Shown one piece after another: positions 12,999-33,485 of a stretch of DNA of 64,000 nt; the stretch's first letter is position 1, and every line of letters begins with the position of its first letter. The stretch lies in the NCBI GenBank assembly GCA_018343915.1, contig JABRWF010000001.1, positions 2,728,001 through 2,792,000 of the forward strand. Direction: 5' to 3'. The notes beneath the pieces were generated by a model that had not been told where the DNA came from, ran no database searches, and saw nothing but the letters and a program-made list of their open reading frames with translations. This stretch comes from Agroathelia rolfsii (lineage: Eukaryota; Basidiomycota; Agaricomycetes; Amylocorticiales; Amylocorticiaceae). Made by a program: the position numbers and the translations under genes.

Positions 12999-13349
12999 GA
13001 TGATGCAAGGACAAAAAATTGGGTGCACGCGATCACGTGCATCGCGGCTGCCCTTAACGACGGGTCAATAGCGACGGACCAATCAAAGATGGCCAGTAGT
13101 ATATATACCCTCGCATGTGGTATCAGTTGCCAGTCTCGTTCCCGAACCCTCGTCTTTCTCTCCCTTCAGTCAGTATCCCCGTCCCCCTCCAGTGTCTTAG
13201 CCTGACTAACTCTCTTCCAACAGCTTTCTTTCTTGTCGCTGTGCGACTTTCCTTGCTTTCAATTTCCATTCAGCTTTCCTCTGCGTCTGGTCTACGTCGA
13301 CCCAGCCACTTCCATCTATCCATTTCGTAGCATTGTTATTCAAATCGCC
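12999..13349 (+). promoter_or_regulatory. Strong promoter of the repeat-peptide gene (shared with ESF1)
   Basis: 351 bp between divergent ATGs. On the plus strand: a CCAAT at 13079-13083, a clear TATA box (tatatata) at 13100-13107, and a long pyrimidine-rich leader from about 13140 to 13330. A TATA box plus CT-rich leader is the usual mark of highly expressed secreted-protein genes in fungi. No counterpart TATA is seen on the ESF1 side. Confidence 0.7.
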
Positions 13350-14223
13350 ATGTTTTCCCGTCGTATCACGGCTTTTGCTGCTGCCGCTGCCCTTTTTGCT
13401 GGCCAGGTTCTGTCTGTGCCTTTGCCCATGCCTATGGAGGTATGTATATGCGCTGTTAGATGATCTATAGTACTAATGTCAATGTTCACAAATCAACTTA
13501 TAGAGAGCATTTGAGGCCCGGAATGAGCTCGATTTCATTCCCGTTCGCCGAACACTGAACTACTTTGAGGCGCGCGCCATCAACACCATCCCCGCTCAGG
13601 ATCCTACCATGTCTCCGGATGGCACGATCGTTCCTTACAGCAACAACCAGAAACGTGCCATTAATAACATCCCTGCAGAGGATCCCACCATGTCGTTGGA
13701 CGGCACAATTGTTCCTTACAGCAACAACCAGAAGCGGGCTATCAACAACATTCCTGCCGAGGATCCTACGATGTCGCTAGATGGTACTATTGTTCCTTAT
13801 AGCAATAACCAGAAGCGTGCCATCAATACAATTCCTGCTCAGGACCCAACCATGTCTCCGGATGGCACGATTGTCCCCTATAGTAATAACCAGAAGCGGG
13901 CTATCAACACAATTCCTGCTGAAGATCCCACTATGTCTCTAGACGGCACGATCGTTCCTTACAGCAACAATCAGAAGCGGGCTATCAACAACATTCCTGC
14001 CGAGGATCCTACGATGTCGCTAGATGGTACTATTGTTCCCTATAGCAATAATCAGAAGCGTGCCATCAATACGATTCCTGCTCAGGACCCAACCATGTCC
14101 CCGGATGGCACAATCGTCCCCTACAGTAACAACCAGAAGAGGGCAATCAACACCGTCCCTGCTCAGGATGCTACCATGTCGTTGGATGGCACCATTGTTC
14201 CCTATAGCAACAATCAGGCTTAA
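13350..14223 (+). CDS. Secreted repeat precursor, kexin-processed peptide (KEP-type)
   Basis: Two exons, 13350-13439 and 13504-14223, with a GT-AG intron (branch-point actaat visible), encode 269 residues. Residues 1-22 form a signal peptide (MFSRRITAF, then an Ala-rich core, LSV). A short pro-region contains Arg-Arg (PVRRTLNYF) and ends EAR. The rest is eight tandem 27-residue units beginning AIN[NT]IPA[EQ]DPTMS, then [PL], ending DGTIVPYSNNQKR. Seven units end in Lys-Arg, the Kex2 site; the last ends QA and stop. Cleavage at KR and trimming would release eight near-identical 25-residue peptides, each with one Tyr and no Cys. Such KR-punctuated repeats are known for alpha-factor pheromones, Ustilago Rep1 repellents and dikaritin RiPP precursors; I cannot assign it to any of these by sequence. 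No tailoring enzyme was found beside it. The secretion and cleavage are inferred. Confidence 0.88.
13576..14223 (+). repeat. Eight 81-bp in-frame tandem repeats
   Basis: Units start at 13576, 13657, 13738, 13819, 13900, 13981, 14062 and 14143. Each is exactly 81 bp, with no length variation. Subtypes by residues 4/8/14 run T-Q-P, N-E-L, N-E-L, T-Q-P, T-E-L, N-E-L, T-Q-P, T-Q-L. Units 3-4 and 6-7 are almost identical in DNA, which points to duplication of a 243-bp (three-unit) block. Confidence 0.95.
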
Positions 14224-28784: not shown

Positions 28785-31700
28785 TCATAGGCCACCGCCC
28801 GTCATCTGGCGGACGAGAAACATGCCCCTGCCTTCGTCCATACTCTTGCCTCGCATACCAACAACGCTCTTGGGCCTTGGACGTCGTCCAGCAGAGGAGC
28901 CTGGGAACAGGTTAGAGCTTCCACCGAGAGGAGATGTCATCTGTTTCGTAGGACTACTGGACAACGATCGCGTCGGATTGAGCCCCCCACCTGTCGTCTG
29001 TCTGTCGACGCCACCAGGCATACTAGTATATTGCCGGGAAGTAGTATGTGTCGACGCAGACTGAGCTGTGTTATATGACGATAAAGATGTCGCAGGACGC
29101 GTCGGCGAAGTCTGAGGTTCGAGACGTTTCGTGGCAGGAAGGAGCAGCTGTAGGCACATATACAGTTTGTAAGCAAAACAACGCAGCAGTAAAGAATGAT
29201 GGGGAGAAAATACATACCAGGCATTCACGGCACCAGATACCTCCCTCACCATCGCTCTTAGCAGCACTATCCAACTTCTTGCCACAACCAGGTTTGCCCT
29301 GAACCTCCTCCTTGCCCCATACAGAGGAGCGCTTGAGGGCCTTGTCCTTGACCCGATCCGTCTTGCCAATACCACCGCCACACACCAAGCATGATGCATG
29401 CCACCTTGATCCACCTGGGCCGGGGACAACGCCAAACTCCATCATCGACACAGCCTTGGAGCACCCAGGGCAGGTCAAGCCACCTCCAAAGCGCGGTGTC
29501 GATGTCGCGCTCGCGCTCGTGCTCGTGCTCGTGCCCATACTCATGCTCATGCTCGTGCTCGTTGTCTGAGGCAGTGCAGTGAGCGGCGGCCGTTCGTATC
29601 GACTCGAGAAGCTGCCGCCTGGCGTGGTATTGATGGGTGCTGGCGTCGGGCGAGAAGTAGAGGCGGCCAGGGAGGATGAACTGGAAATGTAAGTCGATGC
29701 AGGCCTAGCCTTGGCCTTCTTCGTTGGTGCGCAATCGATATGCACAGCTCCCAGCTCCCTGTCGCGCACAAACACAGTACGACCAGCCCCATCGTCCTTG
29801 AACTCGTTTCCACACACCGCACAGGTGAAACAATAGGTGTGGAATCGGATAGACTCCCCATCAGGTGTCACCTCATCAGGCAGCGTCACGTATCGGCTCC
29901 CGTTACGGGTCGGGATCATGATACCGCACTTGGCACAAAGATGTTGAGAGCCTGTCGTCTGAGGCCTCAACGCGATACGAGTGCCTGTCATCTGGGGCTT
30001 GATGGGCGTATGCGAGCCAGTATGCTGAGGTTTAACGGATGTTCCGGTCGTTTGCGACCTAAGAGGTGCATGCCCTCCCGTATTCTGTGGTTTCACAGGA
30101 GCGTAACCGCCGCCGCCGGTAGTCTGTGATTTGATAGGAGCGTAGCTACCACCGGTGTTCTGAGATTTCATAGGAGCATAGCTACCACCCGTGTTCTGTG
30201 GTTTAATAGGAGCGTAGCCGCCGCCCGTATTCTGTGATCTGAGGGGGGCATAACCACCGCCTGTAGTCTGCGGCTTGATAGGCGTGTAGCCACCACCAGT
30301 ATGCTGAGGCTGGAGAGGTGCCCCATACGAGCCCGTATATTGAGGCTTGATCTGCTGCGGTCCAGTGTGTTGAGGCCTGAGCGGCTCCTGTGAGCCTGTG
30401 TACTGGATATCCAGAGCGCGTTCCAGCGCTGAGCGACCCCCCGTGTTCTGTGGCTCAAGCGGACGGGTTCCTCCCGTATACTGCGGCTTTATCGGGCGGG
30501 CCTCTCCCGTGTATTGTGGCTTCAACATAGGAGACTCGCCAGTGTTGTGGGTCTTGATACCCCGCCCTTCGCCGGTGTACTGAGGCTTGATGGCGCGGGA
30601 CTCGCCGCCAGTATACTGGGGTTGCAAAGCGCGCGACTCGCCCGTATACTGCGGCCTCAGAGGGCGCGATTCTCCTGTGTACTGAGCCTTGAGAGGGCGT
30701 GAATCTCCGGTATATTGAGCCTTGATAGCGTGACCCCCTCCGGTATACTGAGACCTCAACATTTGATCCTCTCCCGTATTCTGTGCCACCAAGGGATGAG
30801 TCCCGCCAGTGTGTTGCGGCCTCATGGGACGCGTTTCCCCCGTGTACTGGGGGATCAATGGACGAGCTTCCCCGGTGCGCTGAGAAACCAGAGGACGGGT
30901 GTCCCCCGTACGCTGAGGCTGAACTGTAGTCGCCGTCTCTCCCGTGTACTGCGACCTTAACGCCTGCATTTCTCCGGTATGTTGTGCCCTCATCGGCCGC
31001 GTGCCACCAGTCAACTGGGGCTGCAAAACGGCCACAGGAGTGGCAGCCGTAGTCTGAGTGTCGATTGTGTTGCGTCGGCTGCCGTATTCCCTCACGGGTG
31101 CAGGAGTAGAGACGGGAGAGGCGTGGGATTCCATGAATCTCTGTCTTAGAGCGCTGACGTTTCCGACTCCCTCAAATGGACGCGGCTTGGTAGCGTTGTT
31201 GGTTTCTGATCTCCATGTCTTCACGTCGGTTTGTTTGACTGTGTTCATTGGAGTGGTCGGGTCCGATAGCACCTCCTTCAACGTCGTCCGTCCCCGGCCT
31301 TCATAACCTAAATAGTCGCCAAACACATCGTACTTCTTCCGAGGAGAGGAATTCGACTCGGGAACGCCCGCATCAGATAGCAAGTCGGGCGTGGAAGGAG
31401 CAGTATTTGGTGTATTGCTTAGTTGATGCAGACCGATGGTATGTCCACGCAGGAGGGAAAGGCTAGACAGGCTGCTGGTCGGTGATGCAGAGCTGTCTTC
31501 TGCGCTGCTACCCAGCTCGGGGGATGATGAGAGGTTGGAAGACGAACGGGTCGAGAGGACACCCGATTCGCCTACTTCCGTACGCCGCATGTCACTCCTG
31601 GAATTGCTTCGGCTTCGCATTCGCGCAGGGAGCGTACCCAGATCGGAGACACGCCCAATAGATCGATGGGTGGCGGGGGAGGCAGACATGGAAGCCATAC

Positions 31701-33485
31701 TCTGAGGGGGAGACTGTATAGGCGACGGCACAGGTGATTCACGAGAGGGTGTGGCATTGCGCAAGAAACGCATCTTCATCTCTTCAACGGCCTCTTCCGT
31801 CACTGGCCGTGGAGTCCCACTCTGACTACGAATACCTGGGCTCCTTGTCGGCGTGGAGCTGCGGGGGTAATCTGTCGTGGTACGCGAGGAAAAGGGGCTG
31901 CTGTCACCAACAGATCCGGCACCTGTACTGAGGGTCCTTCGGCGTCGGTCTATAGCAGGTGTACTACTGCGGCTTCCAGAGTCCACCGTAGACATCCCGG
32001 TCGCAGGTGATGAAGCGCGTGCTTGCATCGAACTGAGACGCGCCGTAAGCTCCTCCATGGCAGGGCTGGCTTCACGACTACGGCTTCGATTCCTAAGTGG
32101 TCTTGCTGTATCGCGGCTCTGACTCTGACTACGAGGCCTGGAAATGCCGAGGCGCTCTTCCAACTCTTCTAGAGCGTTATTAGACCTTTCTGGACGTGCA
32201 TCCCGTCGCATGCCACCTAAACGGTTCTCTTCTACCTGCGTCTTGTGTGGTGTGGCTGGCTTGCTCCCACCATTGTGCGCGTATGAGGATCCGAAACAAT
32301 CAACGCAGCAAGGTCTGCCAAGGAGATCAACCATGGGGGCACCACCTATGTTCTTGTTGCATGACTGTAAAACAAAATAAATCGCGCTGTTGCATAATAC
32401 ACGAGATAGATGGACGAACATTGCAATTGAAGCATCGCTTATGCCACACCTGGCCAGCATTCTCCACAAATCCACCGTCGGATTTCAAGATGAGTACGTC
32501 CCGAGAGCAGGTCATGCATTGTCCACGAGATCCGCCATTGACAGTAAAACATGGTCTACATAGGAATCGCGGCGTGTTTGAGGCCGGAGAAGCTGGTGTG
32601 CCAGACGGATCAGGATAGATGGTAGCGTCCGGAGGGAATGGGGTGGCGCAGATGGCACAGGAGTGGGTTGCTAGCGTTTCCTTTGGTTGTAGAATGCTGC
32701 CATATACCTTGGCCAGCTCTCCACCTTTGACTGGGGAAGGTAGGATGCCAGCAGCGGCTGCAGCCATTGGCGATCCCGGGATGGAGGTCGAGGGATTCTT
32801 GACTGGAGATGAAGGACGTGAAGCGGTAGCAGATGCGATATGTGAAGATATACGGTTTGATATGTTGGAGGAACGAGAGAGAGGCTGAGGGAATCGACGT
32901 CCTGAGCTTGGCAAGGACGATGGTGGTTGTGGTGAAGAGGAGTTTTCTTGACGAGAGGGAGATCGTGAAGGGGACTTTTCGCGAGAGACATACGTCTGCT
33001 GCCACTTGTCGTTATCATTGTCTCGATCACGAGCAGCAGCCTGCGTCCAAGGAACAACGGGAGCTGGTGAGCAAGCAAGATGAGCACGGCACATGGTTCG
33101 AGTTTTTTCTATAAGCGATAATGCAAAAACATTAACGGCCAAAAATCAAGGACATACCGACTGGGAAGCCCCCACATTTGCACCTGGGACCGGAGACAAT
33201 ATCACCACAGCGTCTGCAGAAACCCATCAGAGGCCAACGAGAAACAAGTTGCGCTTGCGGCAGTGGCTGCAGCGGCGGCACTTGAGCCTGCGAGCAAGTG
33301 CGTGACCGTGGTTGGTTCTTGCCGTGGCTGTGCACTTCCCAATACGGATAGGACCCCAGAGGGGTCAGAGGGGTGCCAGCAGATCGCGATCGGCTGCTTA
33401 CGCTAGCAGACTCTGGGCCGAGGGTCGCTAAGAAGCCCACGCTTGAGCCGGCTATCCCGTTGTCGCTGTTGTTCTGTATATGCAT
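28785..33485 (-). CDS. Large LIM-domain protein with an LxxQxTG motif array (actin/cell-polarity candidate)
   Basis: About 1500 residues in four or more exons, ATG at 33485. Order: an N-terminal zinc-ribbon-like block (GFCRRCGDIVSGPRCKCGG), a Ser/Arg-rich linker, a first LIM domain (HSCAICATPFPPDA, GQCMTCSRDVLILKSDGGF, VWHKRCFNCNSCNKNIGG, GRPCCVDCF), a disordered region of about 450 residues, then 32 copies of [LIVM]xxQxTG, a second LIM (HLCAKCGIMIPTRNGSRY, FHTYCFTCAVCGNEF, HIDCAP), a third LIM-like unit (LTCPGCSKAVSMMEFGV, RWHASCLVCGGGIGK, GGIWCRECL), and a disordered end with two more motifs (VDRQTTG, LVRQMTG). The LxxQxTG motif is the phosphorylation consensus of the Ark1/Prk1 actin-regulating kinases and is found in Sla1 and Pan1. 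This suggests a cortical actin or endocytic scaffold in the paxillin-like LIM group; the role is inferred. Confidence 0.85.
29950..31027 (-). repeat. Array of 32 LxxQxTG-type motifs inside the LIM gene
   Basis: Reading on minus from 31027: LQPQLTG, MRAQHTG, LRSQYTG, VQPQRTG, LVSQRTG, LIPQYTG, MRPQHTG and so on to LRPQTTG at 29950-29970. Thirty-one carry Gln at the fourth position and one has His (IKTHNTG). Units are 10-14 residues apart; the DNA is degenerate, with indels of 3-6 nt, so this is an old and diversified repeat rather than a recent one. Confidence 0.93.

Follow-up and report, generated by a model that had tools for sequence, protein, structure and literature searches.

A two-exon gene lies on the forward strand of the 64,000-nucleotide stretch of contig C1 analyzed here (the window), and its product has 269 amino acids (Table 1). 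The precursor starts with a signal-peptide-like segment, followed by a short pro-region that contains Arg-Arg and ends in LDFIPVRRTLNYFEAR, and then by eight in-register units with seven Lys-Arg pairs between them. A sequence-only reading of this DNA had described a secreted Lys-Arg-repeat precursor, and its coordinates, frame and counts all hold; the signal peptide that it claimed is predicted from hydropathy, and the pro-region with Arg-Arg is present as well. Two features by which the KEP class is recognized can be found in the protein: a predicted N-terminal signal peptide, here a hydrophobic stretch with a 12-residue mean hydropathy of up to 1.74, and at least three similar repeats with dibasic separators.

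The same reading had pointed to a TATA box and a CT-rich leader, from which it predicted strong expression; sequences of both kinds precede the gene. The pyrimidine content of the leader was compared with 2552 overlapping windows of equal size on both strands. CCAAT and TATATATACCC likewise lie upstream of a second copy of the gene on contig C2, and the relative KEP 497993 of Coprinopsis cinerea has been described as highly transcribed (PMC9769878). The upstream neighbor is a minus-strand gene with matches to the ESF1 and NUC153 domains, and a downstream kinase-like reading frame has a Pkinase match that is under the cut-off of that model. Elsewhere in the window, a large reading frame (29071-32484, minus strand) has a LIM-domain match, a DUF1720 match and many tandem repeats of the PQYTGE/PQNTGG type (within 30080-30752).

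Table 1. Positions of the gene, its putative upstream elements, its repeat units and its second copy
Feature	Location	Strand	Sequence or remark
CCAAT, putative promoter element	13079-13083	+	
TATA-type putative promoter element	13100-13107	+	TATATATA
Pyrimidine-rich stretch preceding ATG	13132..13349	+	72% C+T; 2 of 2552 windows as rich
Gene	13350-14223	+	ATG 13350, stop 14221-14223
Exon 1	13350..13439	+	MFSRRITAFAAAAALFAGQVLSVPLPMPME
Putative signal peptide	13350..13415	+	about 22 aa; cleavage site by eye; 12-residue mean hydropathy <=1.74
Intron (predicted from sequence)	13440..13503	+	64 nt, phase 0, GTATGT...TAG
Exon 2	13504..14223	+	239 codons and stop
Pro-region	13504..13575	+	RAFEARNELDFIPVRRTLNYFEAR; dibasic RR, single Arg preceding unit 1; first part resembles leaders of relatives
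Unit 1	13576..13656	+	AINTIPAQDPTMSPDGTIVPYSNNQ-KR
Unit 2	13657..13737	+	AINNIPAEDPTMSLDGTIVPYSNNQ-KR
Unit 3	13738..13818	+	peptide as unit 2
Unit 4	13819..13899	+	peptide as unit 1
Unit 5	13900..13980	+	AINTIPAEDPTMSLDGTIVPYSNNQ-KR
Unit 6	13981..14061	+	peptide as unit 2; 2/75 nt differ from unit 3
Unit 7	14062..14142	+	peptide as unit 1; 6/75 nt differ from unit 4
Unit 8	14143..14223	+	AINTVPAQDATMSLDGTIVPYSNNQA-stop; ends NNQA-stop
Gene on C2	L008 3990-4941		296 residues, nine units, 8/8 Lys-Arg, 61-nt intron at same place

Repeat units and constraint on the peptide

Each unit is 27 residues long (26 in the last) and begins with Ala-Ile-Asn. Translation and Tandem Repeats Finder (period 81, 8.0 copies, 13572-14217) bear out the description of eight 81-bp units, seven ending in NNQKR and the last in NNQA-stop. 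The program also reports a higher-order period of 243, which fits near-duplicate units three apart (3/6 and 4/7); units 2 and 5 differ at 15 nucleotides and units 5 and 8 at 17, neither pair being close. Lys-Arg is found at 7/7 junctions and is written with four different codon pairs. Positions 4, 8 and 14 are, as had been noted, the sole variable sites in units 1-7, and unit 8 adds I5V and P10A. The statement that every unit keeps Asn-Asn is correct for the window and fails in the C2 copy, where one unit reads SNSQ. The two main peptides are acidic (-2 and -3) and Cys-free, with GRAVY values of -0.52 and -0.42 and 3-4 Pro each.

The suggestion that the mature peptide is under selection is supported by comparisons among the units, which also put numbers to it. 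When each of the eight C1 units is compared with every other over its 25 codons, pS comes to 0.72 and pN to 0.041; the same comparison among the nine C2 units gives 0.69 and 0.062. The resulting ratios (0.018 for C1 and 0.033 for C2) can be read as orders of magnitude only, because the unit pairs lack independence and dS approaches saturation. The fraction of same-residue codon pairs that differ is 0.497 in C1, against 0.512 (sd 0.030) when codons are redrawn at random from the units' own codon use, and 0.492 against 0.515 (sd 0.025) in C2; about 4-6% of the amino-acid-changing sites differ among units. Thus, silent sites are essentially randomized while the peptide is kept, which indicates strong purifying selection and adds a clear sign of constraint on the mature peptide itself. 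Between the C1 and C2 copies, the 54-codon leader has a pS of 0.146 and a pN of 0.041. Judged against this leader value, the silent divergence among units suggests that the units, near-duplicates apart, arose before the two copies diverged.

The counterpart on contig C2

A search of the genome itself found one further locus, on contig C2. This copy keeps the frame, the place of the intron and all eight Lys-Arg junctions of its nine units, which shows that the arrangement is not due to chance. With BLASTN, the window and C2:2629001-2698000 give collinear matches that span all 64000 window bases at a length-weighted identity of 88.3%, a figure that takes in one overlapping match of 68.5%. Such collinearity over 64 kb indicates that C2 holds the chromosome counterpart of the region. 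Most simply, the C2 region would be the other nuclear haplotype, and a duplicated chromosome is a possible alternative for the C1/C2 pair. Among RNA-polymerase loci, one is paired on C1 and C2 and two lie on C3 without a partner; the unpaired loci show that the assembly does not hold a second copy of every chromosome. The assembly may therefore be partly two-haplotype, or the chromosome may be duplicated. Searches of the genome for further family loci, with protein queries that included two relatives, gave no locus besides those on C1 and C2; an extra match at E 0.14 contains four stops and was set aside. The two copies add to the family a member with many near-identical units, the number of which differs between the two chromosome copies (8 vs nine).

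Membership in the KEP 497993 family

The sequence-only reading had proposed a new peptide family. This claim does not hold, as the unit IPA[EQ]DPTMS.DGTIVPY matches the core of C. cinerea KEP 497993, and the published peptides, the homologues and a model of the core place the gene with this agaricomycete family. From C. cinerea, peptides of the form pyro-QIPAELPTKSINGNIEPY(K) have been detected by mass spectrometry; premature caps contain native forms ending in EPY and EPYK that are gone in the deletion strain, and expression of KEP 497993 in Pichia yields QIPAELPTKSINGNIEPYKV and trimmed forms (PMC9769878). The authors' BLAST recovered at least 13 homologues (PMC9769878). The gene in the window is thereby tied to a family with mass-spectrometry precedent, of which it is very probably a further member.

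Relatives with Lys-Arg spacing had been suggested as a search target, and homologues were found, mostly agaricomycete among those that bear names. As a query, the window protein alone recovered one homologue, from Sparassis crispa (E 1.1e-15; scoring covered the 7998 candidates with the most words in common). A profile that contains part of the window protein (A1) listed at least 8 proteins with E up to 3.5e-3. A second profile, built from P0003, P0007, P0009, P0010 and the published C. cinerea peptide but not from the window (A3), listed at least 37 with E up to 4.4e-3, the four proteins in the profile being there by construction. Together, the two profiles give at least 40 distinct proteins, 12 of which bear organism names: Sparassis, Trametes, Hermanssonia, Somion, Polyporus (two), Neolentinus, Termitomyces, Hymenopellis, Serendipita and two Sordariales, the last two being weak (E 4.8e-5 and 5.6e-4). 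Orders are available for eight of the names (Polyporales, Gloeophyllales, Agaricales, Sebacinales and Sordariales), and the nearest named matches among those listed are from Polyporales. The Sordariales proteins (P0038 and P0041) are short and secreted-looking, with IPAEV-type cores ending in PF between dibasic sites, and possibly represent an ascomycete branch of the family.

A loose core pattern gives 130 core-like matches in 36 of the 40 listed proteins, some of them inside leaders; two of the four proteins that lack it are bare leader fragments (P0039 and P0040). A C-terminal Tyr is found in 23/40, and in 18/40 this Tyr closes a loose-pattern core, which fits the Tyr end of the natural C. 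cinerea product. For scoring, a matrix was made from 54 distinct cores (72 strict) of 21 proteins, the window being excluded together with 11 proteins judged Polyporales-like by eye; the remaining 29 comprise these 21 with strict cores and 8 without. Under this matrix, units 1-8 score 22.5, 30.6, 30.6, 22.5, 30.6, 30.6, 22.5 and 16.1 bits and the C. cinerea peptide 46.1 bits. The absolute values are inflated, since the strict pattern fixed several letters, and the controls were scored by the same matrix: none of 100000 shuffles of unit 1, the only unit shuffled, reaches 22.5 bits, the top value being 10.6, and no score above -8.4 comes from the 1306 other reading frames in the window. Thus, the family core IPA..(P/A)T.S..G.I.PY can be recognized in the window units with a matrix that is free of the window.

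The leader gives a second line of comparison. When residues 19-54 of the window protein were aligned with the leaders of 12 relatives picked from the 40, none of 500 shuffles was as good for seven of them, including the Neolentinus, Somion, Trametes and Sparassis proteins, and one was for P0042; matches to P0007, P0011, P0015 and P0022 are unconvincing (39, 36, 112 and 307 of 500 shuffles as good). A shared leader (PMPMP..R..EAR, then IPAY.KR) can thus be traced in 8/12 of the relatives compared, although the alignments span PMPMP..EAR and at most reach IP, IPAY.KR being reduced to FIPVRR in the window protein. An element like (L/F)EVIPAY.KR with a dibasic end recurs in several relatives, reads LDFIPVRR in the window protein and may be a further product.

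The family likeness with KEP 497993 and its homologues lies in the secreted repeat precursor and the core IPA..PT.S..G.I.PY (PMC9769878), the comparison resting on the published C. cinerea peptides rather than on the precursor or leader. Conversely, the window protein differs in its eight near-identical units, their Ala-Ile-Asn start and the Ser-Asn-Asn-Gln tail after Tyr, which is outside the family core. Since the units start with Ala rather than Gln, a pyroglutamate cap as on the C. cinerea peptides cannot form. Of the relatives' cores near KR or RR, 54/102 start with Gln, which makes this residue a mark of a subgroup and not of the family. Sparassis crispa SCP_0108910 (P0003) is similar in its leader, PMPMPLRR, and in cores like NTIPAEVPTMSP.G, and it has three divergent cores in place of eight near-identical units.

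An earlier survey had grouped 64 KEPs from 49 genera as type G-1/P-2 (#7), the most widespread type, which is Tyr-rich, listed with a DUF2188 match and found near DUF3328 genes in 0/64 cases (Umemura 2020; PMC7329392). Its genera include Coprinopsis, Trametes, Pleurotus, Panaeolus, Termitomyces, Neolentinus and Polyporus, and P0011 also shows a DUF2188 match, an artefact. The overlapping genus names and this artefact suggest that type #7 is the KEP 497993 family, an equation by genus list and description rather than by logo; against it, the published genus list has no Lentinula, Sparassis, Serendipita or Hymenopellis (PMC7329392). A literature text search for the core words found PMC9769878 only, and in Le Marquer 2019 (PMC6339444) none of these words occurs in the main text. 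Two further leads on the identity of the window protein were discarded: two Pfam matches, both under cut-offs and of the kind that repeats give by chance, and one solved-structure match (E 0.089), a designed cytokine that is taken as chance.

Processing, role and competing explanations

The gene very probably encodes a KEP of the 497993 family that gives rise to linear peptides processed by Kex2 and Kex1. The sequence and a relative with detected peptides support the kexin-type precursor that had been proposed, cleavage and secretion being predicted for this species. The signal peptide would send the precursor into the secretory pathway, a late-Golgi kexin would cut behind each Lys-Arg and behind the VRR of the pro-region, and a Kex1-type carboxypeptidase would then trim off the basic residues. 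The secreted products would be linear peptides some 25 residues long, acidic and cysteine-free, in two main kinds (AINTIPAQDPTMSPDGTIVPYSNNQ and AINNIPAEDPTMSLDGTIVPYSNNQ), and the repeats would raise the peptide dose. The genome contains kexin P-domain matches on C6 and C7 and at least 24 S10 carboxypeptidase matches (in both cases model matches, not whole genes), which makes the processing enzymes plausible.

The conserved core IPA(E/Q).(P/A)T(M/K)S..G.I.PY most likely would act outside the cell. That the peptides serve as a linear extracellular signal between hyphae or as a factor in biotic interaction is a tentative reading. In C. cinerea, deletions had no visible phenotype in axenic culture, synthetic KEP peptides (not specified further) did not inhibit five bacterial strains, and the authors favor a role in biotic interaction (PMC9769878). 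No function for the KEP 497993 family was found in the literature available. Somewhat more speculatively, the IPAE-type peptide, which has relatives in Sordariales, could be a signal that mushroom-forming fungi have used outside the cell since ancient times and conserved under strong purifying selection, delivered from tandem multi-copy precursors whose copy number differs between chromosome copies, and serving hyphal or inter-organism communication through a receptor. As a conserved peptide of unassigned role, it is a good target for work on receptors and interactions.

A different function, considered unlikely, is that of Rep1-like structural peptides, in which repeats freed by cleavage would come together on the surface of the hyphae as a repellent or fibril. 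Many copies of one secreted repeat would suit such a function, and growth and fruiting were the only traits assessed in the C. cinerea deletion, which leaves room for a surface role (PMC9769878). The short relatives carry only two or three cores. Fibril formers are amphipathic, unlike the window peptides, whose acidic, hydrophilic, Pro-containing and Cys-free composition argues against fibril and membrane-lytic roles alike.

It is very improbable that the product is an unprocessed wall repeat protein with incidental Lys-Arg pairs, as Lys-Arg is kept at every junction of both copies while its codons change and the peptides of the C. cinerea relative are detected natively (PMC9769878), even though cleavage here is a prediction and P0031 repeats its core without dibasic sites. 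Loss of Lys-Arg from otherwise kept repeats had been named as the finding that would speak for a structural wall protein, and P0031 comes part of the way towards it. In P0031, the core is repeated four times with single Arg only, at which it is possibly processed.

The likeness to alpha-factor, Rep1 and dikaritin precursors that had been drawn holds for the shared architecture and does not extend to membership. For the ascomycete alpha-factor and Ustilago Rep1, it is a likeness of architecture (partly from the introduction of PMC9769878), not a letter-by-letter comparison. An alpha-factor-like mating pheromone, for which the secreted Kex2 repeats would speak, is rejected as scarcely credible: the units, each starting with Ala-Ile-Asn, have no XA/XP STE13 dipeptide behind Lys-Arg (DPPIV matches of the STE13 type are present in the genome), Pfam matches up to E 0.1 include no pheromone family, and basidiomycete mating pheromones are of the a-type (PMC6339444).

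Dikaritins such as ustiloxin and phomopsin are likewise secreted Kex2-cleaved repeats with Tyr, and a RiPP of this type, in which UstYa-type oxidases would cross-link the conserved Tyr of every unit into a cyclic product, might draw on at least 36 UstYa-model matches in the genome. This identity has very little probability and is rejected on linkage, since C1, the contig of the window, carries 0/36 of the listed matches (E up to 0.001). There is also no sign of cyclization, Phe replaces Tyr in some relatives, agaricomycete KEP peptides are reported as linear and minimally modified (PMC9769878), and type #7, thought to be the same family, has the DUF3328 record given above (PMC7329392). Separately, the UstYa matches at G000:C2:1966834-1994645 and C2:2092135-2188514 are arranged as mirror-image pairs, whose members have the same score and lie on opposite strands, which suggests inverted duplications on C2.
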